Position numbers and translations under genes: made by a program. The notes beneath the pieces were generated by a model. It worked only from the letters and a program-made list of their open reading frames with translations. It was not told where the DNA came from and made no database searches. DNA of 64,000 nucleotides from Hypomesus transpacificus (taxonomy: Eukaryota; Chordata; Actinopteri; Osmeriformes; Osmeridae): NCBI RefSeq assembly GCF_021917145.1, contig NW_025814039.1, positions 248,001-312,000 on the forward strand, in the 5' to 3' direction. Below are positions 20,972 through 55,479 of the stretch, piece after piece (position 1 is the stretch's first letter; every line of letters starts with the position of its first letter).

Positions 20972-21183
20972 CAGGGGTGTCCAATCCTGGTCCTCAAGGG
21001 CCACTGTCCTGCATGTTTTAGATGTTTCCCTGCTCCAGCACACCTGATTCACATGAATGGTCATTACCCGGCTTCCAAAGAGCTTGATAACGACCCATTC
21101 ATTTGAATCAGGTGTGCTGGAGCAGGGAAACATCTAAAACATACAGGACAGTGGCCCTCGAGGACCAGGATTGGACACCCCTG
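20972..21183. mobile_element. Palindromic hAT-type MITE, 212 bp
   Basis: Begins CAGGGGTGTCCAATCCTGGT and ends ACCAGGATTGGACACCCCTG. Long inverted repeats of about 90 bp include GCTCCAGCACACCTGATTC on one side and its complement on the other. No flanking duplication is evident. Half-copies of a relative lie at about 39829-39925 and in the right palindrome arm at about 54495-54590. Confidence 0.8.
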
Positions 21184-21229
21184 GCCTTCGTCAATAAAAG
21201 TTGCCTGCAAATGTGCTCGCGGATACTAA

Positions 21230-23030: not shown

Positions 23031-25280
23031 AGCGAGGATATGTAGCTAGATTGTCTTAGCTAGCTTGTTAGCTTCACAAACGCCAGATAACTTGAGAAAA
23101 TGAATAAAGTGGATTTCATACTTGAGCACCGGTTATTTACCCTATAAACCCTTAATTTGGAGGAGAAAGTTGAAGTAAAGCAGCTTAAGTGGTGCCCATC
23201 AGCCGCGATATTGTCATCGCTCAAACTGCTGTTAAAAGTAACCGTAGGTATAAAGTGGAGTGGTTTTTGAAGAAAAGGTGGCTAACGGTTAGTCTAGTTA
23301 GCATACAAAAGAAGGCACCTTTCTCTTCAAGTGAGCTCTCAGCCTTGGTGAGTAAAAGCATATTTTATCATCCTGCCTTTGTGATGCTGGTCCGTGCATT
23401 GGTCATATTTTGGGGCTGGATCGATAGATAAAGATGGTGACGTGTCAGTGTGTCCATGCTTATCTGGTTGTTGTCATACAATGGATCTGTATCCCTAAAA
23501 AGTTGTATTTCTGCTTCGTTGTGGCCTTCCGTTGTGTTGAGCTCATTGCTGTTTGCGCATGGCCCTGTAGGCACATTGGTTTTGACCTTGGTTGCATTCC
23601 TAATTTAGGTTTGTAAATATGACAGTGGTAAATTTACATGTGTGTGTGTGAGAGAGACAAGGAGAGCAATTACACAAGAAGGTCTCCCTTTCTCCAGTTT
23701 GTGTACTACAACACCTGGTAGAAGCAAGCCGCTTTGTCGTTAAAAGTGTTGTGTGGAGCCACGCTGTTTGTTGACGTGTTAAATAAACACATCAGTAGCA
23801 AGAGGGACTTTTGTAGCTTACTGGTATCCTATATTTTGAAATGTTTTTTGCCCCACCAATTTTTTACATATAAAAACGCAACTGCAGACACGGCCCCTGT
23901 ATGAGCAGCACACAAGCACTCACCTAGCTGAGAAGCTACAGAAGATCGTGGCAGAGTAGAAACTAAAGGCCTGGAAATTTGGAATTTATTGGGTTTGTAC
24001 AACGTCAGCACACGTTAGCAGCAACTCATAGATACTACGCTCTGGCTAAAAGTGTCTGCTAGACTAAATGCACGTTCTAGTAAGACAGCAATATCAGTGA
24101 GCCCTCAGCATTATTACCGCAGCTAAAAGTCTAGGAAAGTTTAGGCTATTTTTCGCTATTCTTACACTACGAACATTCATATTTAGCACTAGCGTTGCAT
24201 AGGCTACGTCTTTAGTGCTGCTGCTGCTGCTAGCTATCTCTAACTCACTCAGGCACAGCTCGGCTACACCATAGAGTTAATATAACTAGAGTAAGCTACT
24301 TTTGTCTTCCAAGATGGCGGCCCCATTCATTTCTATGAAAAGTGCTCAGTGGCGCAGTGAGGCAAGCGAGAGCGCGAGACTGGGCGCGGCCATATTTCCT
24401 CTTCCGTGTCTTCCGGTCTAGCTTTAAACAGTGGCTCTTTTATTCCCTAGCTCCGAGACCTCGTGCACGCTTGCAACTAGCTGTACACGTCATACTTTGC
24501 GACAACCAGTCGCGAGCATAGATTTATATGGTTACGAGCGTGTGAGCTAAGGCAGAATCTATGGGCAGAAAGTCCGATAAGGATCAGAGACATGATGCAA
24601 ACGTAATGGAAATGTATTCTGTCACTGTATAGTCCTATTACTTCTACTAGTTTTTTTTTAGAACTAGGCTATAGGGCTCAATATTGGGCTATTCTAGATG
24701 GAACTCATCACATGTTGCTTTTTTTCTTCGTGATATGAGTATGATTTCCAACGCATTGTATCGGATGAAATAAACTGTTAACATGAACAGCTCCGTCGTT
24801 GTTCTCGCCAGGCAAAGAAAGCTCAGTTATTTTGATAACCGAAATCTTCCATAATGCAGACTTACCAAAGCTTACTGTCAACTTTATATTCAAACGAAAT
24901 GCCACGAAATTCACACTGCCTTCAATTTCACATCAGTGTCGAAACGCGACCTGTGTTTTATATGTTCAACCGAGAAAACCAAACGTCTATTAATGGATAT
25001 AACGTGATCTAACAAGACGTGTTAATAATGTAATAAATAAAAGCTTGAGAAGTGTGTCTAAAATATACTTGTTTGAACATTTGTCTTTGAAAGGGGCATA
25101 TTCATAGAACCATATAGGCTACAAGACGTTACCATCAGATGTAAGTGGGGGTGAAACATAGTCACTGAGGACCTTCATCGTCCCACAAAAGCAGTCTGGC
25201 ACGATCAAAAAAAGAATAATGGGTGTGTTTAACAAAAGCTTCTGAAGGCAAGACTAATATTATTTATTATATATATTATT

Positions 25281-28200: not shown

Positions 28201-28644
28201 CACCTATGGTCACGAACTATGGGTAGTGACCGAAAGAACGAGATCGCGAATACAAGCGGCCGAAATGAGCTTTCTCCGTAGGGTGTCCGGGCTCTCCCTT
28301 AGAGATAGGGTGAGAAGCTCGGTCATCCGGGAGGGGCTCAGAGTAGAACCGCTGCTCCTCCGCGTCGAGAGGAGCCAGCTGAGGTGGCTCGGGCATCTGA
28401 TTAGGATGCCTCCTGGACGCCTCCCTGGTGAGGTGTTCCGGGCACGTCCCACTGGGAAGAGGCCCCGGGGAAGACCCAGGACACGCTGGAGGGACTATGT
28501 CTCTCAGCTGGCCTGGGAACGCCTTGGGGTCCCCCAGGAAGAGCTGGCGGAAGTGGCCGGGGGGAGGGAAGTCTGGGCCTCCCTGCTTAGGTCGCTGCCC
28601 CCGCGACCCGATCCCCGGACAAGCGGCAGATGACGACGACGACG
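25281..28644 (+). mobile_element. Full-length RTE-type LINE
   Basis: The 5'UTR begins near 25281 (ATCCCCTCCTTGAGTCACC) and the element ends in a short (GAC)n tail. The 12-bp sequence ATATATATTATT occurs at 25269-25280 and again at 28645-28656, a perfect target-site duplication. The element is far more GC-rich than its surroundings. It keeps one long uninterrupted frame, so it inserted recently. Confidence 0.92.
25442..28633 (+). CDS. RTE LINE endonuclease-reverse transcriptase, 1063 aa, intact
   Basis: This single protein nicks target DNA and copies the element RNA. After a Gly/Arg/Pro-rich N-terminus comes the APE-type endonuclease at about residues 92-335, with LGTWNVTSL at its start, the metal-site motif GDFNAHVG (about 230) and the terminal STDHHLVV (about 325). 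A linker follows, then the reverse transcriptase with [26 protein letters not shown] (about 700), [12 protein letters not shown] (about 758) and the catalytic [10 protein letters not shown] (about 797). The C-terminal domain includes [23 protein letters not shown] and a basic [11 protein letters not shown] stretch. All key motifs are present and no stop interrupts 1063 codons. The ATG at 25442 was chosen as the first in frame; the true start could be later, just before the endonuclease. Confidence 0.92.
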
Positions 28645-30115
28645 ATATATATTATTCATTTCCTATTGTGGTTAACAGTTAAAGTATTAATCTTCGTCTT
28701 TGCTCCAGATAGACATGTCAACAATCTATGCTCGCGCTTAACATAATATATTTGCCATCATGTCATGAACGTTTTTACAAAAATCAAATCTGTTTTAAAA
28801 TAACGGGAATAAACTATACTAACAACATTTCATGTATGTGTGACAACGATTTGCTAAACTTGCTACAACAAGGCAGGCAACTCAAGCCATTTCTCCCTGT
28901 GCTCATTCAATATCATTCAGCTCCACGGCTATCGGCCAATGTGAACTTTAGTGCTCGTGCCCTGTTAGTATCCGCCAGCACATTTGCAGGAAACTTTTAT
29001 TGACGTAAGCAAATAAATGGGGGGCTAGTATACCCATTTCGGATTGGTCTCAAACTTAGCAAAAATCGGGAGAAATTATTCTATGAAAAAAAATGTCTAT
29101 GAAATCTATGAAATCTATGAAAAAGCTAGTAGTATGAGCCAGGTTCGAGAATCGAACAAAAATTATTGGGGGAGATAGTTTTGTAAATGTTGACTGGAGT
29201 TAATAGAATAAAAATGACCGGAAGAGTCAGAAACCTAACCGTAATGCAATACCACCTACATCCACCGGGGCCGTTGCTTCAAGCCGAGGGGCAAGGGGTG
29301 GGGGCTTGGGCTACACAGGTGGAGGCGCCAATCAGTTTCAGAGCTAAAGCGGGGCTACAGATTGTCCCTAAAAAACACGATTATCTTACAGTAGTTCCGC
29401 ATTTCATTAATAAATTTGCACGTGAGTTGTATTAATTTTTATACCGTGTATTCTCCGTGTAATTTCACGAGCCGAACCGTGACGCCCGTACCGTACGGTT
29501 CGGTACAAATACATGTACCGTTCCACCCCTAATTATTACAGAGTCTTGTTAAATCACGTTATATCCATTAATAGGCGTTTGGTTTTGTAGGATGAACATA
29601 TAAAACACTGGCCACATTTGAATTTGTGGCAGTGTGAATTTTGTGGCATTTCGTTTGAATATAAAGTTGACAATAAGCTATGGTAAGTCTGCATTATGGA
29701 AGATTTCGGTTACCAAAATAACTAAGCTTTCTTTGCCTGGCGAAAACAACGACGGAGGTGTTCATGATAACAGTTTATTTCATCCGATACAATGCGTTGG
29801 AAATCATACTCGTATCACGAAGAAAAAAAGCAACATATGTGATGAGTTCCATCTAGAATAGCCCTATATTTAGCCCTATAGCCTATTTCTAAAAAAAACT
29901 AGTGGAAGAAATACTATACAGTGACAGAATACATTTCCGTTAAGTTTGCATCATGTCTCTGATTCTTATCGGACTTTCTGCCCATAGATTCTGCCACTGC
30001 AACGCCTTAGCTCACACGCTTGTAACCATATAAATCTATGCTCGCGACTGGTTGTCGCAAAGTATGACGTGTACAGCTAATTGCAAGCGTGGAGCTAGGG
30101 AAAAAAAGAGCCACT

Positions 30116-31397
30116 AGGTGTGTTCGACATGACCCGACTTCATGTGGCGCTGCAACCGGCTGCAGGCGGCTGACTTGAAACAGTGGCTGTTTATCAATCC
30201 ACGTTTTTTTCCGTTCTTGTGTTCTTGCGAACTCGTTTGACGTCATTTATTGCCCAAGTACGGTTCCAATCCAAAGAAAACAAGTCACCAAGAACGCCAA
30301 AAATACCCGGAAATGTTCCTGATCCGCCCCTTTTATCGAGGATGCATCGGATGGTGACTTGACCAGCGGGAACGCTTCTGATTTTCCAGAAGTCATTGCA
30401 AGATGTCAAGCGAGGCGGACAAACCTCACAACTGTAATTTTTTACTTTTCATATTTCAGCTAAACCGTACGTGTAAATCAGCATCTGAATTAAAATGTGA
30501 CGAGAAATAGGCAGTTCAGTCGCTGAAAATTTTCTTATTTTATTGATGAAACGGCTAATTTGTAAATTTGCTCCGACTTGTCGATAACCTAGCTAGTAGC
30601 ATCTCAGTGCAGTGCAGACACTAGTTAACAGGTACTGTAAGTTAGCAAGGGCTACAGAAAACGTAAAATTACAGGTAGATGGACCATTTTTTAGCTTTGT
30701 TATCTAGTTTTTGTAGTTAGTCAGTGTTATCATAATGCTGCGAGTCCAGGAAAACCCTAACCATCTCAATTCATTCTCCGTCCTTGCGTTCTTGCAAGAC
30801 CATTCTCGTAAGGAGGCTTGCCAGAACGTTTTTCAAAAGAATGTACTTGCGTTCTCAGCGTTCTTCGGATTGATAAACAGCCAGTGAATTCTGGTTAGAC
30901 TTTTTGTCCGACTTGAGGCGGCGCCGAGGATACGTCACTGTGACGTTGCCATCAAAGTAACGTGAGATCGATTCGAGAACTGCCGGCTGTGTAGCCGAGC
31001 GCATTTTCTGAAGAGCAACTGCACGCGTTCAAGTGACGACACAGCTATTTCATGATTGGCCAGACTCACACACGACAACTTTGACGCGTGTTTTGCAATA
31101 TTCGGACACCTTCAGTTTCGCCAATGCTCAAATCCGGACCGAACAGTTGTATAGAATAAAACATTTATGAAAGAAAGGGTTTTAACCCACCTCTTCACTA
31201 ACGGAAAGACTACGTTTATTTATAAATAAAGTAAAGTAAGCAAACAGCGCTTAATCGGCCGTGACTGACGTCAACGCAGCAAACCACGAGAAGCTGAAAT
31301 GTCCGACTTCACAGAGCCGTTTTTAACTCCTCTCCGGCTGCAAGCGTCCACTCTAGCCGGTCATTTCATGCAGCCGCAGTCCATGTCGAACGCACCT
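30116..31397. mobile_element. MITE with AGGTGTGTTCGACATG ends, ACT duplication
   Basis: Ends AGGTGTGTTCGACATG and CATGTCGAACGCACCT, with ACT at 30113-30115 and 31398-31400. Copy B (near 24434) has the unoccupied site with one ACT. The 3-bp duplication suggests the Harbinger group. It holds a nested MITE at 30181-30886. Confidence 0.8.
30181..30886. mobile_element. Nested MITE with GGCTGTTTATCAATCC ends
   Basis: Left end CAGTGGCTGTTTATCAATCC, right end GGATTGATAAACAGCCAGTG. It sits inside the larger MITE. Its middle (30430-30610) resembles, inverted, the interior of the 21230-21801 MITE. The target duplication is unclear. Confidence 0.7.
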
Positions 31398-31560
31398 ACT
31401 GTTTAAAGCTAGACCGGAAGACACGGAAGTGGAAATATGCCCGAGTCCAGTCTCGCGCTCTCGCTTGCCTCACTGCGCCACTGAGCACTTTTCATAGAAA
31501 TAAATGGGGACGCCATCTTGGAAGACAAAAGTAGCTTACTCTAGTTATATTAACTCTATG

Positions 31561-32026
31561 GGCTCAATGGGGCTCCTTGGAGCTCTTTGTAGGGGATGGG
31601 GCTCAATGGGGCTCCTTGATAGGTGATCCCTGATAAGCTACGGATTTACGTAGCCTATCAGCTAACTTAGAACGTAGTAAGTTACCAACGTAGATTTTTT
31701 TTCTTCTATATTTGATTGCAGATTCAATATTCTATTAGCTTTATACTATTGTCTTTACTCATTAGAAATGTTTTTCTTTCTTTTTAAGTCTTATTCAATT
31801 AAGTTACAGGTTGGAATGTGATGCAGCAGTGGTGGGGCGGCGCCCTCTATGAGGCGGCCGCTGCAGCTGCCTAATTAAATGCCCTATAGGTAATTCATCA
31901 CACCTGGTACCCACTACCAACAGCGCTAATTTCAGTGACAGGGACGCTTGAGTTCTTTTGTGAAATTGCTCGAGTTGATGTAGCATATCTTCCTAAAATA
32001 ATGTAGGTATAGGCATCTGTAGGATA
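31561..32026 (+). promoter_or_regulatory. Upstream region of foxr1
   Basis: Holds two GGGGCTCAATGGGGCTCCTTG repeats (31560-31620), AT-rich sequence and a GC-rich patch at 31830-31870. The foxr1 5'UTR and promoter must lie here, but no TATA box or transcription start can be placed with confidence. Confidence 0.35.
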
Positions 32027-38934: not shown

Positions 38935-38967
38935 CTGTAATGTATGGGGGGTGACAAGTGCCCTCAC

Positions 38968-39260
38968 TATCGAACGCCGATTGTGCCAAAACGTCTGGAC
39001 TGTCGTTCGTGTACACACGTCAATTTTTGACGGGTACAGACGTCAAAAATTATCGAACGCCGATTGTGCCAAAACGTCTGAACTGTCGTTGGTGTACACA
39101 CGTCAATTTTTGACGTGTACAGACGTCAAAAATTATCGAACGCCGATTGTGCCAAAACGTCTGAACTGTCGTTGGTGTACACACGTCAATTTTTGACGTG
39201 TACAGACGTCAAAAATTGACGTCTGTACACGTCCGTTTTTGACGTCTGTACACGTTTAAA
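38968..39260. repeat. Minisatellite at left palindrome end
   Basis: Three units with an 83-bp period starting at 38968, 39051 and 39134. Each carries TATCGAACGCCGATTGTGCC, AAAACGTCTGAACTGTCGTT and the near-palindromic GACGTGTACAGACGTC. The terminal part alternates orientation of the 16-mer. Confidence 0.85.
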
Positions 39261-39828
39261 ATTGGGTGCTACCACTTCATTTTTTTCTGAGGGGAAACCA
39301 GATAACGATTATTGCAAGAGTGAAAACCTGTCCACACTCAACCAATCTTGATTGAATTAAGGTTAAGAAATAGGCTAATATAAATTGGCAGTGACATTAT
39401 CAACAACTGTAGGCTATTTTGTAAGTTACTGAAAAAATTATTACATTTGTATACAATATCATATTCACATTTCGAAAAAGGTATACATTTCAGTTTGTTA
39501 AAATGCCCACTAGATGGCAGTGTGTGTGCACAAATAGTAAGGGCAGAGCCTCTGGTCAATGTGATGGGTATAGCCAAGGATAAATTGTGGCGCAACAGCA
39601 AGCAAAATAATATTACAATAAAACAGGTTAGGAATACACAGGGTTGAAGACAGCTGGACAGTACACAGAGAAGCCTTAGTCAAGAAATAAAACACGTAAT
39701 ACCCATGGCAATATACAAGTAATATCCAACACAAGGAATGTAAAATATACTTTTAATGTAATTGAGAGTAAATATAATGTACAGGGTCTGTTTTTTTTCC
39801 CCAGGATAGGGATGGGAACTTATCAGTA

Positions 39829-39945
39829 GTAGTGGTTCCCAACCCTGGTCCTCAGGATAACGACCCATTCATTTGAATCAGGTGTGTTGGAGCAGGGAAA
39901 CATCTCAAACATTCAGGACAGGTCTATAGAGGATAGAGACTTGTG
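39829..39945. mobile_element. Half copy of a CAGGGGTG-type MITE
   Basis: Contains CCAACCCTGGTCCTCAGG, then ACGACCCATTCATTTGAATC and GGAGCAGGGAAACATCT, matching the right half of the 20972-21183 MITE. The counterpart in the right arm is at about 54475-54591. Confidence 0.65.
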
Positions 39946-39962
39946 TTATGCTGGGTACACAC

Positions 39963-40708
39963 CTTGGGGAACCTACAGGAACCTTGGGGTTACCATGGAT
40001 GACGAGCTCTCCCTCACGGCCCACATCGCCGCAGTCTCCCGGTCTTGTAGATTCACCCTCTACAACATCCGGAAGATCAGGAGATACCTGTCTGAGCACT
40101 CCACCCAGCTGCTAGTCCAAGCACTGGTCCTCTCCAAGTTGGACTACTGCCTGTCTGAGCACTCCACCCAGCTGCTAGTCCAAGCACTGGTCCTCTCCAA
40201 GTTGGACTACTGCAACTCGCTGCTCGCTGGTCTCCCAGCATGTGCAACCCGCCCTCTTCAGAGGATTCAGAACGCAGCGGCCCGCCTGGTCTACAATCTA
40301 CCCAGACGCTCCCATGTTACCCCGCTCCTCATCTCTCTCCACTGGCTACCCATCAACGCCCGTATCAGATTCAAGACCCTGGTACTGACCTTCCGAGCAG
40401 TGAACGGGACTGCACCCGTCTACATCAAGTCTCTCCTGCAGCCTTACACCCCCACCCGTCACCTACGGTCTTCTTCAGAACCGCCTGGTGGTCCCACCGC
40501 TCAAGACTGCCCGGTCCCAACACAAGCTCCTCCTGCCTGGCCCCCCAATGGTGGAACCAGCTCCCCACCTCCATCAGGGACACTGACTGTCTCCCCACCT
40601 TCAAGAAAAGGCTCAAGACGCACTTGTTCCGGGAGTACAACGGCACTTAAGAATGCTTGGCTGGACTTGTTAGTTTCCTCCAGGATCACAATGACTCTTA
40701 TTGAGTGA
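39963..40708 (+). pseudogene. L2 protein C-terminal fragment
   Basis: Encodes the C-terminal part of the L2 ORF2 after the RT catalytic motif: NLGVTMDDELSL, LDYCNSLLAGLPACATR, SLHWLPINARIRFKT. The 63-bp duplication repeats LSEHSTQLLVQALVLSKLDYC. A frameshift near 40480 changes the reading after the HLRSSS segment; the original end (KRLKTHLFREYNGT) continues in a second frame to 40650. Without the endonuclease and RT core it is non-functional. Confidence 0.8.
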
Positions 40709-41030
40709 CTTGTTGCTCTCTTAGGTCAGATATAACAAAGTTAAGTCTTGTACTCGCTGTGAAATATTTTACTGTTGATTGTTCTTCTACAGGTACAGTC
40801 CTGCACTTTTGTGGTTCATGTTGTTTAATTTGTAACTTGTATAACTGCATGCTCTTATGGGTCTTCCCTTTGGCACTTGTTTAGCTTTTCACAATGTATG
40901 CTTCATGTTTTGGCTACTTGCAATGTTTGGGACTATCACGTTGTTATGATCAGTGACCTATGCTCTTTTGTAAGCTCTCTCTTGGAAGTCGCTTTGGATA
41001 AAAGCGTCTGCTAAATGAATAAATGTAAAT
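39963..41030 (+). mobile_element. L2-type LINE copy 2, left arm only
   Basis: 5'-truncated L2 of 1068 bp flanked by GTACACAC (39955-39962, 41031-41038). The right arm has the empty site. The reading frame starts at NLGVTMDDELSLTAHI and runs past the usual terminal domain; the sequence ends with AAAAGCGTCTGCTAAATGAATAAATG and a short ATGTAA tail. A 63-bp in-frame tandem duplication is present at 40088-40150 and 40151-40213. Confidence 0.9.
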
Positions 41031-42350
41031 GTACACACACATTTTTTTTTTGTTCATGTTTTAACATGTGAGACCACAAACATGAGGACAAGAAAATCCT
41101 AAATGTAACCTTTCTGATCCTATAGTGTGTGGTGTTTGTCGTTGGGGTTCCCCTCACACATCATGATTTTGGAGCGGCTCCGACGTTCTTCCGAGCAAGT
41201 TCGGCCGCTCTTAACACACCTCACATCAAGGGAAAATCTGATAAAATAATCTGCAGATAATCGGGACATAACCTAGGATTGTCGGGACATTACCTAGGAT
41301 TGTCGGAAGGGGGAAATCGGCCCCAAATCAGCCCAATTATCTTGTGGTGTATACCCAGCATTAATCAGAGCATGTTTGAAAGGAGTTGTAAATTAGTGGA
41401 GCAAGGAACAGAGTGCCATTAATTAAACCTGAGCAAGGAGGGCATTATTAATGGCCCAGATAATGTGATCAGATTTCATCTCCATGCTGCTATGTTGCAT
41501 TGCCTGGGCAGCACCTTTGGCCAGAAATCTGGTGCATTCCTTTGCCTATTTGGTAGGCTATTGAATGTTTGAATCCCCTCTGACCATACATGGGGCATAG
41601 CGCACACATTTATTTTTTCACTCATACTTTGGTGGTTATAAAATTTCAGCATAATACTTTTTCATGCCAAAACTAATCTTTAATAAATGTGTATATGACC
41701 TGTCATCAATTATTTACAATCTCTTTGCATGCTCTGCGCTTGAGTCATTATAGGCTATGGTTGCATTCATCGCTGTTCCCAAGTCGAGGTGCATCATTTT
41801 TGTAAAATGAATGACACTGAACAGTTTGCCATGAAATGCTTGTTTTGTTGACTACAAAAAGAAATTGTAGGCTTATGTGTTGCATCAGCAATAATTGGGA
41901 GCTCAATCAGTTGTCAATTATTCAATTAACAGTTGTAGGCTTCAGAGTAGCATATTTATGCATAAAGTTGAACACATTGTTTATGAAATGTCTAAAGTTG
42001 GCCAATTTAGATTATGTAGGCCTACCTTAATATTCTAACCCAAGGGGGTTAGTATAGCCTATTATGCAGTGTACATAATGCACTGTATATTTAAACATCA
42101 GTTCTCTGCTTTTTTTTTTTTTTTTAACTGTCGGAGGCCGAACACACCACAAAACAAGGCTACAGCAAAATATAGGTTATTGGCTTGACTAGGAATTAAT
42201 TAGCCTACGCACTATAGACGCTTAGTTATTATTGTTATAACATGTATATATTTCATATTTCCGGTACAGCTAGAGCTCGCCTTTCTTTACCCAGAAAATG
42301 GACTGGCCAGGTTCCTAAATGCAAACACGTGCGCGCTGGTGCTATACTTT

Positions 42351-42912
42351 AGAATCAGAAGGGATTTTATTCGCCATGAATGTTTGCACAAACAAGGAAT
42401 TTACTTTGGCAGGGAGGTGCATACATTAAATATATAGGAATATTGAAACCTAAATACGTGGACTAACTATACAAAAGGAGCAAAGTCTAGCTAATACCAA
42501 AGGGGGTCTAGCTAATACTAAGGGGAATAAAAAATAATATATAAGTAGCCCTAATTTACAATAACCTAAAAATACAGATAGTGCAAACAATACAATAGTG
42601 AAAATTGCAATGTGCAGGGTGTCATTGTGCAGATTGTGATTTAAAGTCAGTATGAGTCCTTGGCCTTGTTAAAGAGGCCAACAGCAGAGGGGAAGAAACT
42701 GTTCTTGTGGCGTGAGGTTTTGGTCTTGATGGACCGCAGCCTTCTGCCGGAGGGGAGTAGCTGGAACAGGGAGTGTCCAGGGTGGGAGGGGTCGGCCACA
42801 ATCTTCCTCACTCGCCTCAGGGACCTTGAGGTGTGCAGATCCTCGAGGAAAGGCAGATTGCAGCCGATCACCTTCTCAGCAGTGCGGATGATACGCTCCA
42901 GTCTACTTACCT
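42351..42912 (-). mobile_element. Rex1-like LINE 3' fragment (left arm)
   Basis: The minus strand encodes the C-terminal segment LEDLHTSRSLRRVRKIVADP, FQLLPSGRRLRS and FFPSAVGLFNKAKDS (42871-42647), then a 3'UTR ending GAATAAAATCCCTTCTGATTC. The right-arm counterpart is 52583-53144. A longer relative is at 60639-62105. The neighbouring 41361-42350 interval has no recognised feature beyond a T-rich run near 42110. Confidence 0.85.
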
Positions 42913-43624
42913 GTGGGTGAGACTTATGACACCTTTAAAAGGTGTATCTTGGAATAGGTTAGAATAGGCTATGCAGATCAGTTTGGGGAGGACTTAATGT
43001 AGTCGTAAATTAATTTTATCTTACATGAACACGTGTTTTGTTCTGTTTAAATGGATGGATTTCAAAGGCGTAGTTACATAATGCAATAACATTAAACACA
43101 AGCAAAATTGTATATGGTCTGCTCATCTTTATTACATTGACGTGATTGAGACTGCTTACTCATTCCAAGGCCTATTGAAAATGTGATTACAACAGTTAAA
43201 TTATGTGTGTGTAGACTGTATTTAAGAAAGGACATTGAGGACCTGATCAGTTCCCAAACTGTCTATCTCTACCAAACAATTTGTGTGTTCCAACTGTTCG
43301 TCACTTGGTTGAAATTGGTTTAGGGGAACCACAACTCTTTGTCAAAGGCAAGTGCAGCCGCCCCTTGGTCAGCCACCCCCTAGAACTGGCTGCTCCAAAT
43401 ATACCTTGGATACCAGTGTGATGTTGCAACTGTTGTGTAAGACAACCTTGTACAAAAAATTGATATTGTGACGTGTATCTGGCAGTCCTCAGGTCACGTT
43501 TTATACGAGGCAGGTAAACAAAGTGAAGAGCCCAAAGATGCCTTTCGTTGTTGGCAATAATGATTCCTTCTTTTTCTATATAGATATGTAAACAAGGAGT
43601 GCTGGACATCCATTTCAAGTCTTA

Positions 43625-44268
43625 GGCCGAATCCCAATACTCCCCCTTACCCCTTCCCCTTAATTTACCCCTTCCCCATGGCCCTCGAAAGTAAGGGGTA
43701 AGGGCTACATAGCCCTAGGAAATGGGACGCCACTTGGTTACAGGTACGTCATCTAGCACGTATCGATATCTCCAAAGCAAGTAGCGTTATGCACTGATAT
43801 TAAACGAAATTCGCTGCTAATGGAGTTTACTTAGAACTGTAGACATGCTAGTCAAAAAAATGCGGGACTGTTGTGCAATTCAGAACTGTAACATTAACGT
43901 ACTAAACTAACGATTTTTAGAAACGTTTCAATTAGGAAAATGGTTGCAAATATATACGTTCATGACTGTATATAAAACAAAACAAGACTGTCCATTTTTT
44001 TATCAATTAATTAAGCCGATAATATAACATTTATCAGACTCTCTGGATGATTTGGTCGCCATTGTTGCCGGTCGCGCAGTTTTCACATAGCCCTAGGTTT
44101 CAAGTAAGCTCCCGATCTTACTTGGTTTTAAGGGGTGTATACCCCTTAGTCTTAGCCCTTCCCCTAGCTCCAAAAGAGTATTGGGACACCACTAGCTCTC
44201 ACGGGAACGCGCAAAACTAAGGGGAAGGGGTAAGGGGAAGGGGTAAGGGGGAGTATTGGGATTCGGCC
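43625..44268. mobile_element. MITE with GGCCGAATCCCAATACTCCC ends (left arm)
   Basis: Ends GGCCGAATCCCAATACTCCC and GGGAGTATTGGGATTCGGCC with TTA on both sides (43622-43624, 44269-44271), as in Harbinger. It sits in the 3' tail of a LINE; the intact tail is seen near 62905. The interior has AGGGGTAAGGGG and its complement near both ends. Confidence 0.85.
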
Positions 44269-44954
44269 TTATTGTCAGGTACACAAAACACCACAAAGTC
44301 AGACTGGGCACTGTCATTTTTGGGACAAGACAATGCAAAGCAACCTGGCATAACATAATAAGTACTTAGATTACATTTATGATAAGCTAAAAAAATATGA
44401 TCATTTATAAACCTCCTAAATATACAAAATAGTATACAAAATATTAGACCTCTAATACAGATAATGACCTACACTAACCTTACACCTATACTAACCTAAG
44501 ACAAGTGGGGTACAGTTGGTGCAATATTGCTGATAGTGCAACCAGTGGCTGAAGGTGACAGTGTGTAAAGTGACTAGTGAGAAATGCATCAATGTTAAGT
44601 GGCTAGTGAGAACTGTCCATGTAAATGGTCATTCAGAAGCCGCCCGGCCCTTGGATAGAAACTGTTGTCCAGAAGGCAGCGGGGTAGAGACTGAAAGATG
44701 GGTGGTAGCAGTCTTTTAGAATCCTGCCAGCTGTCCAGAAGGCAGCGGGGTAGATACTGAAAGATGGGTGGTAGCAGTCTTTTAGAATCCTGCCAGCTGT
44801 CCAGAAGGCAGCGGGGTAGAGACTGAAAGATGGGTGGTAGCAGTCTTTTAGATTCTTGCCAGCTTTCCTGAGGCATCGTGTGTGGTAGGTGTCCTGTAGG
44901 GCTGGGAGCTTCCTGTCGATGATAAACTCAGCAGACCTGACCACACTACGTAGG
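44269..44954 (-). mobile_element. Rex1-like (type 2) LINE 3' fragment (left arm)
   Basis: The minus strand reads VVRSAEFIIDRKLPALQDTY then a C-terminal region, and ends in a tail with GTCAGGTACAC on the plus strand. A 66-bp unit is tandemly triplicated in frame (44671, 44737, 44803), giving a 22-residue repeat with FSLYPAAFWTAGRILKDC. It is inserted in the integrase-core gene. The right-arm copy is 50541-51226. Confidence 0.8.
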
Positions 44955-46209
44955 ACTATTACAATGTCACTTCTGTTGTTGTTAGAAGCCTTCAGGAAAA
45001 CCACCAGTCGGCTGAACCCATCGATTCCTCCATGGATTACAATCCTCCGCCTAAGAGAGGAAGGAAGGGAAAACGAAAGATTTCAATTGCACATCTTATT
45101 TTATAAATAACAAAAAAAAATATGAATGGCTTGAATGCAGCTAAAATGATTTGTGTACATTTCTGTGCAACATGTTGGGCGTTTAACAGAAAGAAAAGTC
45201 CAACCTCTATTCCATTCATGTGAAGCTGAAAATCTTATTTTAAATTCAAAACTAATAAAATAATCAGCTTGTCATTGGCTAGGGACACAGTTAGGGCAAA
45301 TTAACGAATCACAGTAAAACAAGCCACTTACTTTAAGAGCTTGTGGTTGCGATCAAGATGCCACAGCGAATTTGACCCTGCCACTCGATGTGTTCTCCTC
45401 CGAAGCCTGTGGGACATACTCCGAATAGCAGCACCTTCAGATCAAGTGCATCATCTGGTCTGTAAAAGATGAAATTGTGCTGTCTATGGAAGACAATGTA
45501 TACATATTAGGACTTAGATCCATTTTTTACATTCATCCCTGGTAACTCTAAATAAAACAATGTGTTTAAGGAACGGTGACAAGGTAGCTATGTGGTACAA
45601 GCGCGTGACAGTTTTCTCTCCAAAGATATGGGATATGAAAGAGTTCTATCAAAGTATATCAATTTCTTCATGAAATGTATAGAAAGCGTAATTCTGCAGT
45701 GTTTCATGTGCTTTGTAAATAAACAAAATAATTGTGTAGGGCTCAGTGAGAAAGGGGTCACATTATTCAGATCTCTCCTGAACTAGTCCTTCAATTGACA
45801 CATACCTTAACCGTCGGTTCACTGTTCTTCTTGAGACACCCACGATCTCCGCAATTTGTTTAGCAGAGAAGTTAAAGGACAACAACATCTGCAACTGCTC
45901 TTGGGCGATTTGGTAAACCGGCCTTCCTCCAGTCTGTCCTCCCATTCGAGGTACGGTGAAACCAGAAGCAACTGCAGTTAAAGAGAAAAATGTTAGAGGC
46001 ATCGTGTTTTGAATCTTGCTTCTTCAGATAATGTTTAATCTGACGAGTACATTACCAGGTTGTTGTTGTTGTTGGCTTCCTGAACTAACTCGCTCATGAG
46101 CAAAAGCATCTCATCCACCACTCCAGATTGATGCAGTCTGCACTCTGCTCCAGCGAACGCTCGTCGCCATTATCTCTAACCTGTTAGCATGACAAAATAT
46201 ATTAGTGGT

Positions 46210-46710
46210 AGGCTAACTAAGCTTGTTTAACAACTCTGAGGTTGCTGGCTTCAGCAACATAACCGCATTCAGTAACGCAATATTCAAAGCCTTATAAGGT
46301 CTAGTTTAGCGGCGTTAATTTGAGCTTGCTCATTATTAAAGAATTAAGCTAGCACTACAAGTGTGTTGACGAGTGGTATGCTAAATACAACAAAGCTTGC
46401 TAAACAACTCTTTGAGATTGCTGGCTTCAGTAACATAACCGCATTCAGTAACGCAATATTCGAAGCCTTATAAGGTCTAGTTTAGCGGCGTTACTTTGAG
46501 CTTGCTCATTATTAAAGAGTTAGCACTAAGTGTGTTGACAAGTGGTAGGCTAACTTCAACAAAGCTTCTTAAGCAACTCTTTGAGATTGCTGGCTTCAGT
46601 AACATAATAATCGCATTCAATAACACAATATTCAAAGCCTTATGGTCTAGTTTAACGGCGTTAATTTGATCTTGCTCATTATTAAAGAGTTCGCACTACA
46701 AGTGTGTTGA
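46210..46710. repeat. Intronic tandem repeat, three units (left arm)
   Basis: Three units of about 170 bp, each with TTAATAATGAGCAAG-type and GCCAGCAATCTCAAAGAG-type words on the complementary strand. The mirror is 48785-49285. They lie between the first and second exon-like blocks. Confidence 0.8.
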
Positions 46711-47102
46711 CGAAAAGTCAGGATCCCAGGAGGACAGGACTAGCCAACAGCTATTCAAAACAAGTAACTTGGCTTAACGTTGCTAATTGATAGCTTACCT
46801 GGCAAGAACAGTCTGTATGGAATCCTGGTCATCTGAAGATAAAAGTAGTCGAGTACAATCTGAAAAAGTCTGGGCACAATTGTTGAGAAAGTTTGTGGTC
46901 GTAATTTTCTGAGATTTGCCTCCACCAGAATTCGAAATCACACACAACGTGTTCGTCTTCTTCGTTGGTTCTTTGAATGGCGGTTAGCAAACAATGTATA
47001 GGCGCATCATCGCCACCTACTGGACGGGAGTATGATGCCGGATAAACCGCAAAAGTGGCTCTCCCCCACACAAATGGACTGTCCCAAATACTAAATGATA
47101 GC

Positions 47103-47951
47103 CAGAGAATGTCTAATAAAGAGAGAACTCCCACTCTCGGGAAACTTCCGGGTTCTGAACTGGTTGCAGTTCCACTCAAGTTCCATGTGAGGGCGCTAAC
47201 GGTCGAGTGCAGAATGAATGGAGGTCTATGGAGCTATACCCCTCAAAATCCACTTTTCTCAGGATATAATTTTTTGTCTAGTAATTTGAATTCTGAAATC
47301 GAAAGGGGAGGCAAAAAAAACACACACCACTGGGTGTTAGATTTTTTTTAAAGTCGCCTTTCTGTTCTAAAAAGCCTTTGAAAATGGCATTGACGTCATA
47401 CACATCGTACGACCAGAGCTACTGCTTGACGGCAAGCTCTGGTTACTTCCACTTTACTCTCGAGGCATCGACAACACAGCTGACAGGTTAGGCTTGCCCT
47501 GTCAATACAAATGCTAGAAAGAGTTTTGGCTTGCTAATGTTGTTGCTAATGTTGCTAGTGCTCTGACATTTTGGTTCTGCTTCGGATGCCATCAAGCGGG
47601 ATCTCTGGTCGTAGTCAGTCCTTCACTAACCAATCAACATTCGTTAGCAGAATGCTAGTGTGTTATGGGCAACAACGACTTACCCCTTAAGAAATCGAAA
47701 GGACGTAAGTACTCGTTCATTCAACTTTTGACGTGTAATCCATGTTGAACATCTAAAAACTATAATAAAATCTGAGATTTATCAACGACAATCAGGCGAA
47801 AGAGACAAATTTAGCCGTTTATCTCCATAGACTCCCATTCATTTTGCACTCGACCACGATCACTCCCGGTGGAACTTTGGTGGAACTGCAACAAAATTCG
47901 GTACAATGGGGCTTAATAGGGAGTGGGCAGGCTCTCCTTAAACAGGCTCTG
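47103..47951. mobile_element. hAT-like element copy 2 near the palindrome centre
   Basis: 849 bp, CAGAGAATGTCTAATAAAG to CTTAAACAGGCTCTG, flanked by TGATAGC (47096-47102, 47952-47958). The right arm has the empty site (TAGCTATCATTTAG near 48390). It matches the copy at 14508-19461 and lacks Harbinger. No coding capacity was seen. Confidence 0.88.
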
Positions 47952-48069
47952 TGATAGCTACGTAAGAGCCCACATGGTCACAGTAGGACTACGTACAGCC
48001 TCGCGCAGACACTATGTAAAAAGGGGGGTGGCTATGTTGAAGCCAACCAATAGCATGGAAGCATAAATG

Positions 48070-48290
48070 GTCCAAACGCGTACAGACGTCAAATACGGAC
48101 GTGTACAGACGTCAAAACGTGTACAGACGTCATTTTTTACGTTGTACACGTCAACAATTTACGTGTGTACACGAACGACAGTTCAGACGTTTTGGCACAA
48201 TCGGCGTTGGATAGTTTTTGACGTCTGTACACGTTTTGACGTCTGTACACGTCAGTTTTTGACGTCTGTACACGTTTGGACCATTTATGC
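48070..48290. repeat. Central minisatellite and palindrome loop
   Basis: Left of the loop are three GACGTGTACAGACGTC-type words, and right of it three in inverse orientation. The 86-bp loop (48133-48218) carries one asymmetric unit with AACGACAGTTCAGACGTTTT and GGCACAATCGGCGTT, the same unit found in the outer arrays. Confidence 0.85.
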
Positions 48291-48784
48291 TTCCATGCTA
48301 TTGGTTGGCTTCAACATAGCCACCCCCCTTTTTACGTAGTGTCTACGCGAGGCTGTACGTAGTCCTACTGTGACCATGTGGGCTCTTACGTAGCTATCAT
48401 TTAGTATTTGGGACAGTCCATTTGTGTGGGGGAGAGCCACTTGTGCGGTTTATCCGGCATCATACTCCCGTCCAGTAGGTGGCGATGATGCGCCTATACA
48501 TTGTTTGCTAACCGCCATTCAAAGAACCAACGAAGAAGACGAACACGTTGTGTGTGATTTCGAATTCTGGTGGAGGCAAATCTCAGAAAATTACGACCAC
48601 AAACTTTCTCAACAATTGTGCCCAGACTTTTTCAGATTGTACTCGACTACTTTTATCTTCAGATGACCAGGATTCCATACAGACTGTTCTTGCCAGGTAA
48701 GCTATCAATTAGCAACGTTAAGCCAAGTTACTTGTTTTGAATAGCTGTTGGCTAGTCCTGTCCTCCTGGGATCCTGACTTTTCG

Positions 48785-49285
48785 TCAACACACTTGTAGT
48801 GCGAACTCTTTAATAATGAGCAAGATCAAATTAACGCCGCTAAACTAGACCATAAGGCTTTGAATATTGTGTTATTGAATGCGATTATTATGTTACTGAA
48901 GCCAGCAATCTCAAAGAGTTGCTTAAGAAGCTTTGTTGAAGTTAGCCTACCACTTGTCAACACACTTAGTGCTAACTCTTTAATAATGAGCAAGCTCAAA
49001 GTAACGCCGCTAAACTAGACCTTATAAGGCTTCGAATATTGCGTTACTGAATGCGGTTATGTTACTGAAGCCAGCAATCTCAAAGAGTTGTTTAGCAAGC
49101 TTTGTTGTATTTAGCATACCACTCGTCAACACACTTGTAGTGCTAGCTTAATTCTTTAATAATGAGCAAGCTCAAATTAACGCCGCTAAACTAGACCTTA
49201 TAAGGCTTTGAATATTGCGTTACTGAATGCGGTTATGTTGCTGAAGCCAGCAACCTCAGAGTTGTTAAACAAGCTTAGTTAGCCT
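48785..49285. repeat. Intronic tandem repeat, three units (right arm)
   Basis: Units begin near 48787, 48958 and 49127, each with CAACACACTT, TTAATAATGAGCAAG, AACGCCGCTAAACTAGACC and GAAGCCAGCAA. They differ from one another by small indels but match the left arm unit by unit. Confidence 0.85.
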
Positions 49286-50540
49286 ACCACTAATATATTT
49301 TGTCATGCTAACAGGTTAGAGATAATGGCGACGAGCGTTCGCTGGAGCAGAGTGCAGACTGCATCAATCTGGAGTGGTGGATGAGATGCTTTTGCTCATG
49401 AGCGAGTTAGTTCAGGAAGCCAACAACAACAACAACCTGGTAATGTACTCGTCAGATTAAACATTATCTGAAGAAGCAAGATTCAAAACACGATGCCTCT
49501 AACATTTTTCTCTTTAACTGCAGTTGCTTCTGGTTTCACCGTACCTCGAATGGGAGGACAGACTGGAGGAAGGCCGGTTTACCAAATCGCCCAAGAGCAG
49601 TTGCAGATGTTGTTGTCCTTTAACTTCTCTGCTAAACAAATTGCGGAGATCGTGGGTGTCTCAAGAAGAACAGTGAACCGACGGTTAAGGTATGTGTCAA
49701 TTGAAGGACTAGTTCAGGAGAGATCTGAATAATGTGACCCCTTTCTCACTGAGCCCTACACAATTATTTTGTTTATTTACAAAGCACATGAAACACTGCA
49801 GAATTACGCTTTCTATACATTTCATGAAGAAATTGATATACTTTGATAGAACTCTTTCATATCCCATATCTTTGGAGAGAAAACTGTCACGCGCTTGTAC
49901 CACATAGCTACCTTGTCACCGTTCCTTAAACACATTGTTTTATTTAGAGTTACCAGGGATGAATGTAAAAAATGGATCTAAGTCCTAATATGTATACATT
50001 GTCTTCCATAGACAGCACAATTTCATCTTTTACAGACCAGATGATGCACTTGATCTGAAGGTGCTGCTATTCGGAGTATGTCCCACAGGCTTCGGAGGAG
50101 AACACATCGAGTGGCAGGGTCAAATTCGCTGTGGCATCTTGATCGCAACCACAAGCTCTTAAAGTAAGTGGCTTGTTTTACTGTGATTCGTTAATTTGCC
50201 CTAACTGTGTCCCTAGCCAATGACAAGCTGATTATTTTATTAGTTTTGAATTTAAAATAAGATTTTCAGCTTCACATGAATGGAATAGAGGTTGGACTTT
50301 TCTTTCTGTTAAACGCCCAACATGTTGCACAGAAATGTACACAAATCATTTTAGCTGCATTCAAGCCATTCATATTTTTTTTTGTTATTTATAAAATAAG
50401 ATGTGCAATTGAAATCTTTCGTTTTCCCTTCCTTCCTCTCTTAGGCGGAGGATTGTAATCCATGGAGGAATCGATGGGTTCAGCCGACTGGTGGTTTTCC
50501 TGAAGGCTTCTAACAACAACAGAAGTGACATTGTAATAGT

Positions 50541-51226
50541 CCTACGTAGTGTGGTCAGGTCTGCTGAGTTTATCATCGACAGGAAGCTCCCAGCCCTACA
50601 GGACACCTACCACACACGATGCCTCAGGAAAGCTGGCAAGAATCTAAAAGACTGCTACCACCCATCTTTCAGTCTCTACCCCGCTGCCTTCTGGACAGCT
50701 GGCAGGATTCTAAAAGACTGCTACCACCCATCTTTCAGTATCTACCCCGCTGCCTTCTGGACAGCTGGCAGGATTCTAAAAGACTGCTACCACCCATCTT
50801 TCAGTCTCTACCCCGCTGCCTTCTGGACAACAGTTTCTATCCAAGGGCCGGGCGGCTTCTGAATGACCATTTACATGGACAGTTCTCACTAGCCACTTAA
50901 CATTGATGCATTTCTCACTAGTCACTTTACACACTGTCACCTTCAGCCACTGGTTGCACTATCAGCAATATTGCACCAACTGTACCCCACTTGTCTTAGG
51001 TTAGTATAGGTGTAAGGTTAGTGTAGGTCATTATCTGTATTAGAGGTCTAATATTTTGTATACTATTTTGTATATTTAGGAGGTTTATAAATGATCATAT
51101 TTTTTTAGCTTATCATAAATGTAATCTAAGTACTTATTATGTTATGCCAGGTTGCTTTGCATTGTCTTGTCCCAAAAATGACAGTGCCCAGTCTGACTTT
51201 GTGGTGTTTTGTGTACCTGACAATAA
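50541..51226 (+). mobile_element. Rex1-like (type 2) LINE 3' fragment (right arm)
   Basis: Mirror of 44269-44954, with the same in-frame triplicated 66-bp unit. It is fused in frame to the integrase-core exon, so a chimeric 123-codon frame runs from 50491 to 50862. Confidence 0.8.
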
Positions 51227-51870
51227 GGCCGAATCCCAATACTCCCCCTTACCCCTTCCCCTTACCCCTTCCCCTTAGTTTTGCGCGTTCCCGTGAGAGC
51301 TAGTGGTGTCCCAATACTCTTTTGGAGCTAGGGGAAGGGCTAAGACTAAGGGGTATACACCCCTTAAAACCAAGTAAGATCGGGAGCTTACTTGAAACCT
51401 AGGGCTATGTGAAAACTGCGCGACCGGCAACAATGGCGACCAAATCATCCAGAGAGTCTGATAAATGTTATATTATCGGCTTAATTAATTGATAAAAAAA
51501 TGGACAGTCTTGTTTTGTTTTATATACAGTCATGAACGTATATATTTGCAACCATTTTCCTAATTGAAACGTTTCTAAAAATCGTTAGTTTAGTACGTTA
51601 ATGTTACAGTTCTGAATTGCACAACAGTCCCGCATTTTTTTGACTAGCATGTCTACAGTTCTAAGTAAACTCCATTAGCAGCGAATTTCGTTTAATATCA
51701 GTGCATAACGCTACTTGCTTTGGAGATATCGATACGTGCTAGATGACGTACCTGTAACCAAGTGGCGTCCCATTTCCTAGGGCTATGTAGCCCTTACCCC
51801 TTACTTTCGAGGGCCATGGGGAAGGGGTAAATTAAGGGGAAGGGGTAAGGGGGAGTATTGGGATTCGGCC
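51227..51870. mobile_element. MITE with GGCCGAATCCCAATACTCCC ends (right arm)
   Basis: Mirror of 43625-44268, flanked by TAA (the complement of TTA). It sits in the LINE tail in the same position as in the left arm, so it predates the palindrome. Confidence 0.85.
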
Positions 51871-52582
51871 TAAGACTTGAAATGGATGTCCAGCACTCCT
51901 TGTTTACATATCTATATAGAAAAAGAAGGAATCATTATTGCCAACAACGAAAGGCATCTTTGGGCTCTTCACTTTGTTTACCTGCCTCGTATAAAACGTG
52001 ACCTGAGGACTGCCAGATACACGTCACAATATCAATTTTTTGTACAAGGTTGTCTTACACAACAGTTGCAACATCACACTGGTATCCAAGGTATATTTGG
52101 AGCAGCCAGTTCTAGGGGGTGGCTGACCAAGGGGCGGCTGCACTTGCCTTTGACAAAGAGTTGTGGTTCCCCTAAACCAATTTCAACCAAGTGACGAACA
52201 GTTGGAACACACAAATTGTTTGGTAGAGATAGACAGTTTGGGAACTGATCAGGTCCTCAATGTCCTTTCTTAAATACAGTCTACACACACATAATTTAAC
52301 TGTTGTAATCACATTTTCAATAGGCCTTGGAATGAGTAAGCAGTCTCAATCACGTCAATGTAATAAAGATGAGCAGACCATATACAATTTTGCTTGTGTT
52401 TAATGTTATTGCATTATGTAACTACGCCTTTGAAATCCATCCATTTAAACAGAACAAAACACGTGTTCATGTAAGATAAAATTAATTTACGACTACATTA
52501 AGTCCTCCCCAAACTGATCTGCATAGCCTATTCTAACCTATTCCAAGATACACCTTTTAAAGGTGTCATAAGTCTCACCCAC

Positions 52583-53144
52583 AGGTAAGTAGACTGGAGC
52601 GTATCATCCGCACTGCTGAGAAGGTGATCGGCTGCAATCTGCCTTTCCTCGAGGATCTGCACACCTCAAGGTCCCTGAGGCGAGTGAGGAAGATTGTGGC
52701 CGACCCCTCCCACCCTGGACACTCCCTGTTCCAGCTACTCCCCTCCGGCAGAAGGCTGCGGTCCATCAAGACCAAAACCTCACGCCACAAGAACAGTTTC
52801 TTCCCCTCCGCTGTTGGCCTCTTTAACAAGGCCAAGGACTCATACTGACTTTAAATCACAATCTGCACAATGACACCCTGCACATTGCAATTTTCACTAT
52901 TGTATTGTTTGCACTATCTGTATTTTTAGGTTATTGTAAATTAGGGCTACTTATATATTATTTTTTATTCCCCTTAGTATTAGCTAGACCCCCTTTGGTA
53001 TTAGCTAGACTTTGCTCCTTTTGTATAGTTAGTCCACGTATTTAGGTTTCAATATTCCTATATATTTAATGTATGCACCTCCCTGCCAAAGTAAATTCCT
53101 TGTTTGTGCAAACATTCATGGCGAATAAAATCCCTTCTGATTCT
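52583..53144 (+). mobile_element. Rex1-like LINE 3' fragment (right arm)
   Basis: Mirror of 42351-42912; encodes the same C-terminal peptide (52624-52848). The following interval 53145-54134 has no recognised feature apart from an A-rich run near 53370. Confidence 0.85.
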
Positions 53145-54134
53145 AAAGTATAGCACCAGCGCGCACGTGTTTGCATTTAGGAACCTGGCCAGTCCATTTT
53201 CTGGGTAAAGAAAGGCGAGCTCTAGCTGTACCGGAAATATGCAATATATACATGTTATAACAATAATAACTAAGCGTCTATAGTGCGTAGGCTAATTAAT
53301 TCCTAGTCAAGCCAATAACCTATATTTTGCTGTAGCCTTGTTTTGTGGTGTGTTCGGCCTCCGACAGTTAAAAAAAAAAAAAAAAGCAGAGAACTGATGT
53401 TTAAATATACAGTGCATTATGTACACTGCATAATAGGCTATACTAACCCCCTTGGGTTAGAATATTAAGGTAGGCCTACATAATCTAAATTGGCCAACTT
53501 TAGACATTTCATAAACAATGTGTTCAACTTTATGCATAAATATGCTACTCTGAAGCCTACAACTGTTAATTGAATAATTGACAACTGATTGAGCTCCCAA
53601 TTATTGCTGATGCAACACATAAGCCTACAATTTCTTTTTGTAGTCAACAAAACAAGCATTTCATGGCAAACTGTTCAGTGTCATTCATTTTACAAAAATG
53701 ATGCACCTCGACTTGGGAACAGCGATGAATGCAACCATAGCCTATAATGACTCAAGCGCAGAGCATGCAAAGAGATTGTAAATAATTGATGACAGGTCAT
53801 ATACACATTTATTAAAGATTAGTTTTGGCATGAAAAAGTATTATGCTGAAATTTTATAACCACCAAAGTATGAGTGAAAAAAGAAATGTGTGCGCTATGC
53901 CCCATGTATGGTCAGAGGGGATTCAAACATTCAATAGCCTACCAAATAGGCAAAGGAATGCACCAGATTTCTGGCCAAAGGTGCTGCCCAGGCAATGCAA
54001 CATAGTAGCATGGAGATGAAATCTGATCACATTATCTGGGCCATTAATAATGCCCTCCTTGCTCAGGTTTAATTAATGGCACTCTGTTCCTTGCTCCACT
54101 AATTTACAACTCCTTTCAAACATGCTCTGATTAA

Positions 54135-54471
54135 TGCTGGGTATACACCACAAGATAATTGGGCTGATTTGGGGCCGATTTCCCCCTTCCGACAATCCTA
54201 GGTAATGTCCCGACAATCCTAGGTTATGTCCCGATTATCTGCAGATTATTTTATCAGATTTTCCCTTGATGTGAAGTGTGTTAAGAGCGGCCGAACTTGC
54301 TCGGAAGAACGTCGGAGCCGCTCCAAAATCATGATGTGTGAGGGGAACCCCAACGACAAACACCACACACTATAGGATCAGAAAGGTTACATTTAGGATT
54401 TTCTTGTCCTCATGTTTGTGGTCTCACATTTTAAAACATGAAAAAAAAAAAAAATGTGTGTGTACCCAGCA
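54135..54471. mobile_element. MITE with TGCTGGGTA ends, intact (right arm)
   Basis: 337 bp, TGCTGGGTATACACCACA to TGTGTACCCAGCA, with TAA on both sides. It is the unoccupied counterpart of the L2 site in the left arm. It contains CCGACAATCCTAGGT twice. Confidence 0.85.
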
Positions 54472-55164
54472 TAACACAAGTCTCTATCCTCTATAGACCT
54501 GTCCTGCATGTTTGAGATGTTTCCCTGCTCCAACACACCTGATTCAAATTAATGGGTCGTTATCCTGAGGACCAGGGTTGGGAACCACTACTACTGATAA
54601 GTTACCATCCCTATCCTGGGGAAAAAAAACAGACCCTGTACATTTCATTTACTCTCAATTACATTAAAAGTATATTTTACATTCCTTGTGTTGGATATTA
54701 CTTGTATATTGCCATGGGTATTACGTGTTTTATTTCTTGACTAAGGCTTCTCTGTGTACTGTCCAGCTGTCTTCAACCCTGTGTATTCCTAACCTGTTTT
54801 ATTTTAATATTATTTTGCTTGCTGTTGCGCCACCATTTATCCTTGGCTATACCCATCACATTGACCAGAGGCTCTGTCCTTACTATTTGTGCACACACAC
54901 TGCCATCTAGTGGGCATTTTAATGAACTGAAATGTATACCTTTTTCGAAATGTGAATATGATATAGTATACAAATGTAATAATTTTTTCAGTAACTTACA
55001 AAATAGCGTACAGTTGTTGATAATGTCACTGCCAATTTATATTAGCCTATTTCTTAACCTTAATTCAATCAAGATTGGTTGAGTGTGGACAGGTTTTCAC
55101 TCTTGCAATAATCGTTATCTGGTTTCCCCTCAGAAAAAAATGAAGTGGTAGCACCCAATTTTAA

Positions 55165-55410
55165 ACGTGTACAGATGTCAAAAACTGACGTGTACAGACG
55201 TCATTACGTGTACAGACATCAAAAACGGACGTGTACAGACGTACATTTTTGACGTCTGTACACGTCAAAAATTGACGTGTGAACACGAACGACAGTTCAG
55301 ACGTTTTGGCACAATCGGCGTTCGGTAATTTTTGACGTCTGTACACGTCAAAAATTGACGTGTGTACACGAACGACAGTTCAGACGTTTTGGCACAATCG
55401 GTGTTCGATA
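55165..55410. repeat. Minisatellite at right palindrome end
   Basis: About two units matching the 83-bp repeat, with GTGTACACGAACGACAGTTC, AGACGTTTTGGCACAATCGG and GACGTGTACAGACGTC words. It has fewer units than the left end and unmatched bases at both sides of the array (e.g. 55412-55450). Confidence 0.8.
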
Positions 55411-55479
55411 ATGATTGTCAGGCGTAGCGACGGTTGTGTGTTGTTCTGGTGTGCGAGGGCACTTGTCACCCCCCATACA

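Follow-up and report, generated by a model that had tools for sequence, protein, structure and literature searches.

A 16.5-kb near-palindrome composed of two head-to-head copies of an IS3EU/GingerRoot-like transposon

The 64,000-nucleotide stretch of Hypomesus transpacificus DNA analysed here (hereafter, the window) corresponds to positions 248001–312000 of contig C371 (prefix G000) in a single assembly of 437 Mb and 376 contigs. Self-blastn and a base-by-base alignment of the arms delineate a near-palindrome of 16.5 kb with arms of ~7.2 kb, lying near positions 38941–55479, and the length and identity of the arms cannot be the product of chance. The palindrome is composed of two copies of one DNA transposon that meet head to head and share a single 83-bp terminal unit as the loop. 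We consider it probable that these are copies of IS3EU/GingerRoot type, that the pair dates from about the time when its family spread, and that its core was later homogenised by gene conversion; with less confidence, the two copies would have entered separately, with loss of DNA between their heads.

The inverted matches returned by self-blastn form three blocks that differ in the sum of their paired positions: 39217–39962 with 54458–55203 (sum 94420, 98.1% identity), 41031–47102 with 48393–54465 (sum 95495–95496, 99.84%) and 47952–48132 with 48219–48399 (sum 96351, 97.2%). An earlier reading of the letters alone (hereafter, the sequence-only reading) had given these sums as 94420, 95495 and 96351, and they are reproduced here, as is the loop it had placed at 48133–48218. 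It had also ascribed the steps between sums to later insertions, and the sums indeed shift because two inserts exist in the left arm only. Aligned base by base, the arms differ at 14 of 746 columns outside the outer insert, at 10 of 6,073 between the two inserts and at 5 of 181 beside the loop, giving 29 differences in 7,000 aligned columns. The loop and inserts are as follows.

48133–48218, no strand: loop of 86 bp, to which the left-arm head contributes its single terminal unit (48133–48213)
39963–41030, plus strand: left-arm-only insert, the tail end of a long interspersed nuclear element (LINE), with a flanking GTACACAC duplication
47103–47951, no strand: left-arm-only insert with CAGAG..CTCTG ends and a flanking TGATAGC duplication

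Both inserts are flanked by short duplications and are therefore younger than the sequence around them. The LINE insert, which we take to be L2-like, holds an exact 63-bp tandem duplication (40087–40213), and a UnaL2 LINE end was detected in the analysed DNA.

The two transposon copies and their tandem terminal units, the latter defined by comparison of repeats and termini, are placed as follows.

38968–48213, minus strand: left-arm transposon copy, TATCGAAC-type at either end, its tail lying at 38968 and its head at 48213, including the two inserts, delimited by its termini and by matches to other copies
48214–55410, plus strand: right-arm transposon copy, its head truncated at 48214 (GTTTTTGACG) and its tail ending at 55410
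38968–39216, plus strand: three tandem 83-bp terminal units of the left tail
55245–55410, minus strand: two tandem 83-bp terminal units of the right tail

The outer termini are less regular than in the sequence-only reading, as the left tail carries three units and the right two, and a stretch of 42 bp occurs only at the right outer end; on the left it is missing precisely as far as the transposon end.

For comparison with the right arm, 17 stretches were taken around matches to the transposon head. Single arm-like elements are present in several of these, near complete in L016, L017 and L018 and only in part in the others; the genome searches scored at most 40 candidates, so that copy numbers are lower bounds. 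The single copies terminate at both ends in TATCGAACGCC or a close variant, in keeping with the TA..TA ends of IS3EU/GingerRoot. Eight copies outside the window have both termini, and their 6-bp flanks match at all six bases in five cases and at five of six in one, while the remaining two (C363 and a composite on C17) lack a target duplication. Peptides from three other copies match the integrase core rva_4 (PF24764) with E-values of 6e-35, 3e-33 and 1e-31; catalytic residues of the transposase were judged by eye. Passages of PMC10045372 describe IS3EU/GingerRoot elements as having TA..TA ends, usually 6-bp target duplications and a DDD/E integrase-like transposase, and the arm transposon appears to fit this description on all three points, as seen in its single copies. 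The sequence-only reading, which knew of no named element with this layout, is not supported on this point: each arm is a copy of a transposon that fits IS3EU/GingerRoot, and single copies of it lie elsewhere in the genome.

The arms are not uniformly alike. Their longest identical run covers 3,968 bp.

42687–46654: identical core, left arm
48841–52808: identical core, right-arm partner

When the 29 differences were placed at random 200,000 times, no run of this length arose. Divergence between the arms amounts to 0–0.27% over 48.4–53.9 kb and 0.72% in the next segment, and rises to 1.8–2.0% at the tail and 2.8% at the head. Between the arms and other copies it is mostly 2–4% (0.9–8.3% across the segments listed, with the short, diverged L019 left out), so the arm-to-arm divergence at both ends lies within the range seen between arms and other copies. 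Identity far above that of unlinked paralogues, which marks a gene-converting palindrome, was found between the arms in the core and not in the ends. Private variants, defined as absent from all other copies compared, were counted in columns with at least three other copies and no gap in either arm, leaving out L013, L014 and L019. In the core (4,389 columns, excluding the 645-bp insert at 51227–51871 but including the 555-bp LINE-like piece at 52591–53145) 46 private variants are common to both arms, with 3 confined to the left and 0 to the right. The ends (927 columns) hold 0 common to the arms, 6 left-only, 9 right-only and 4 other differences. Intermediate counts come from the first shoulder (440 columns; 2 common, 1 other difference) and the second (576 columns; 3 common, 4 in a single arm, 1 other difference). 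Fisher's test on shared private variants in ends versus core gives p = 0.00026, with sites taken as independent.

Phylogenetic trees, from which copies covering 40% or less of a segment were left out (C8 and C19 for the ends, C26 for the core), are in line with these counts. The arms cluster at 100% in the core tree, on a stem of ~0.013; in the ends tree they do not group, and the stem is near zero when grouping is forced. The nearest relative of the arms is copy C11; at 14 core sites and 3 tail-side sites both arms agree with C11 and with no other copy. Gene conversion predicts just such a contrast between core and ends, which suggests recent arm-to-arm conversion within an older pair. Such conversion, which the sequence-only reading had named as something the structure could undergo, is thereby supported by the identical core, the private variants, the divergence contrast, the permutation and the trees. 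Identity falls off toward the two left-arm inserts, and the converted stretch lies between them without ending exactly at either. It is conceivable that the assembly filled one arm, or the core, with sequence of the other arm, and 3,968 bp without a difference, in what is after all a single assembly, could be read in this way. We hold such an artefact to be very unlikely, given that the two sides have distinct flanking repeats, that the two left-only inserts come with duplications, that the 29 differences are scattered and that no N is present.

Outside the transposon tails lie mirrored ends of a dispersed repeat, here called Z.

38943–38967, minus strand: end of Z on the left side, of which the 23 bp 38943–38965 are identical to Z copy L068
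55411–55477, plus strand: terminal 67 bp of Z, a repeat found at 22 places listed, with the window counted in and several partial

The left tail is adjoined by these 23 bp of the Z end in mirror orientation plus 2 bp, and beyond the Z ends the repeats on the two sides differ. The outer limit of 38941/55479 given by the sequence-only reading is correct to within 2 bp; the Z ends lie at 38943/55477 and the final 2 bp match by chance. A reading of the outermost inverted match, 27 bp long, as the element's own terminal repeat was rejected, as this match consists of the Z end and 2 chance bases. A placement of both copies inside one Z element with mirrored ends was considered as a possibility. Opposed Z pairs closer than ~24 kb (C6) were seen at none of the 22 listed places besides the window, in a comparison to which a Z end as short as the left one would be undetectable.

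Two histories fit this arrangement. Either the copies inserted separately near Z ends and the DNA between their heads was then lost, or an inverted duplication took place long ago. The duplication, which we see as possible though unlikely, supposes that one insertion (the right copy with its 67 bp of Z) was inverted and duplicated through fold-back or a template switch in the head repeats at an early stage of the spread of the family, and that conversion later kept only the core alike. It would account for the Z ends in mirror orientation after both tails and for a loop that is a single terminal unit, and in the ends tree a sister relation of the arms is not firmly rejected. The ends, however, contain 0 private variants common to the arms, and the stem shared by the arms, ~0.013 in the core, is ~0 there. 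Extra events would also be needed, because the mirror symmetry ends precisely at the Z terminus, as does the gap of 42 bp on the left at the transposon end. A recent inverted duplication was ruled out, the arm ends being as diverged as other copies; only the old form is retained as a rival.

In the account that we prefer, the pair would be about as old as the spread of the family, and its core, roughly 48.4–54.0 kb with its mirror, would later have been homogenised by arm-to-arm gene conversion. Less confidently, each copy may have entered separately, and a loss of DNA between the two heads may have left the small loop. The left copy is complete up to its head end at 48213, and the right copy begins within its own head repeats at 48214. 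The junction at the centre, GGATA–GTTTTTGACG, resembles the unit-unit junction of the right tail, GGTA–ATTTTTGACG, so that a deletion between short direct repeats, of the TTTTTGACGTCTGTACACG kind, would suffice. Alternatively, the loss could have been a deletion made by transposase, running from the end of the left copy into the head repeats of the right copy at a GTTTTT site; read as AAAAAC, this hexamer is the target of the C23 copy. Several points weigh against this account. Neither the left copy (1 of 6 bases matching) nor the whole pair (0 of 6) retains a target duplication. Both tails sit in mirrored ends of Z, which is a coincidence under this account and would be accounted for by an inverted duplication. 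When the arms are forced together in the ends tree, the p values are 0.265 in the Kishino–Hasegawa test, 0.265 in the Shimodaira–Hasegawa test and 0.041 in the approximately unbiased test; the grouping is not clearly rejected, and separate insertions are therefore not proven. Finally, conversion of the ends by third copies would fit a similar pattern, at the cost of more events.

The subterminal tandem repeats resemble the ends of foldback elements (compare the passages on these in PMC4079207), and a single foldback-type element with 7-kb inverted termini, mobile as a unit, was considered accordingly. We regard it as extremely improbable and rejected it together with any other single palindromic element, since arm-like copies occur singly with target duplications of their own and the composite has none. 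Because of the 0 of 6 matching bases, and because the 171-bp centre of the palindrome is fully matched solely at its own place (among the best 40 of 51 candidates), the palindrome does not look like one mobile unit. Two arms sharing an end were not seen in any other stretch compared with the right arm. On C21 a second, partial copy lies in opposite orientation ~2.3 kb past the tail of the first. C91 shows a tandem array carrying a piece of the transposon, with three direct partial head-region matches 4.1 kb apart (L024 698–961, 4790–5051 and 8880–9141).

Both arms retain remnants of the transposase and share several rearrangements, listed here with the left-arm position first.

45766–46023, minus strand (right-arm partner 49472–49729, plus): helix-turn-helix coding piece of the transposase (HTH_23, 26.2 bits, cut-off 24.6)
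44636–45082, minus strand (partner 50413–50859, plus): integrase-core coding piece, rva_4 positions 21–52 only
43304–43621, minus strand (partner 51874–52191, plus): further integrase-core piece, rva_4 positions 125–172
44957–44958 (partner 50537/50538): junction of a ~189-bp deletion, in both arms
43624–44268 (partner 51227–51871): 645-bp insert with 39-bp inverted ends, in both arms
42350–42904 (partner 52591–53145): 555-bp LINE-like piece, in both arms

The deletion removes ~189 bp (188–190) of the transposase core. Of 11 other copies examined, 3 were without a probe; the stretch is present in 8 of the 8 with both probes, and both arms have 0 bp of it. In three other copies, the coding piece that holds it spans rva_4 positions 21–119 of 194. 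The arms keep just positions 21–52 and 125–172, and a complete core domain is therefore not expected from either. This common deletion falls inside the identical core. Outside the window, the 645-bp insert was found in 1 of 6 other copies with both probes (C11) and the LINE-like piece in 4 of 6. A 66-bp tandem repeat array with an open frame is present in the transposase region of both arms (44666–44875 and 50620–50829).

Insertion into end repeats is recurrent in the family. At C17:10507888–10519030 (L018 8389 to L055 231) a relative with two TATGGAAGGCC ends ~11 kb apart, its interior mostly not read, is nested in the head repeats of an arm-type copy and is bounded by a perfect 6-bp GTGTAC duplication. 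On C21 a relative abuts the same GTGTAC target, with one side seen, and another on C23 matches at five of six duplication bases. Full duplications (6 of 6) mark such nested insertions on C17, with GTGTAC, and on C23, with AAAAAC. A preference for such sites is not established and is only a lead. Distinct termini were counted after leaving out L001–L008, the window re-cuts L026, L027, L034 and L060 (repeats of other loci), L020 (a near-identical second place of L019), the Z copies L068 and L069, and termini with less than 60 bp of flank. The outer hexamer AAAAA[CT]/[AG]TTTTT occurs at 8 of these 37, and an end-repeat motif lies within 60 bp outside 7 of the 37, against 51 of 20,000 random 60-mers from window positions 1–38,859. 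Of the seven, four are within the arrays of the palindrome itself, at three unit-unit junctions and at the centre, one is a tandem unit of C17 and two are both ends of one insertion; a target-site preference for the family's own end repeats was for this reason set aside. As a tentative and rather doubtful generalisation, the tandem end repeats (GACGTGTACAGACGTCAAAAA) might serve as recurrent landing sites for the family and its relatives, so that the family would tend to build head-to-head palindromes, in which conversion would then copy even a disabling deletion between arms and keep the palindrome alive. Elsewhere on the same contig (C371:414889–415027), terminal units match both strands and overlap in a small inverted structure of family ends. 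The tail flank of the C363 copy (L017 2279) resembles the head flank of the C2 copy (L021 8864), and given this likeness and its missing target duplication the C363 copy may be a recombinant.

Elsewhere in the window, an open frame at 25442–28633 encodes 1,063 amino acids with endonuclease and reverse transcriptase domains, seemingly an intact LINE reading frame, and is flanked by inverted matches with varying sums (20871–25029 versus 28665–31561).

Drosophila singed-weak is said to involve a head-to-head pair of P elements, two defective copies abutting in inverted orientation; the elements are short, no conversion signal is known for them, and our literature search found no paper on it. Described IS3EU/GingerRoot elements differ from the present case, in which two defective copies share one terminal unit. 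The string 'palindrom' is absent from the main text of the IS3EU/GingerRoot paper (PMC10045372), and no description of a palindromic IS3EU pair was found in the literature among titles and the beginnings of abstracts. Extra terminal units in tandem are also a feature of Mutator-like elements (MULEs) with multiple tandem terminal inverted repeats, for which passages of PMC3310237 weigh slippage, recombination, and nested insertion with duplication loss as origins; MULEs belong to another superfamily, and those passages contain no giant palindrome. The Tetris foldback transposon of Drosophila virilis, as portrayed in part of PMC4079207, likewise has tandem repeats within its terminal inverted repeats, but is a foldback element in its own right, whereas here the palindrome is a pair. 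A further parallel comes from human Y-chromosome palindromes such as P6 (passages of PMC3723533), with inverted arms whose very high identity is kept by gene conversion over kilobases; unlike in these, the arms here are ~7-kb transposon copies around an 86-bp loop, and just the core is homogenised. Sex chromosomes supply the best-known large palindromes with gene conversion, and there conversion obscures how they arose by erasing the traces. In the present palindrome the founding transposon copies are recognisable, their unconverted ends survive and relatives provide a yardstick, so that the limits of conversion can be read. The case suggests a route by which both members of a pair can end up with a defective transposase, and also that parasitic DNA may build and maintain palindromes of the kind best known from sex chromosomes.

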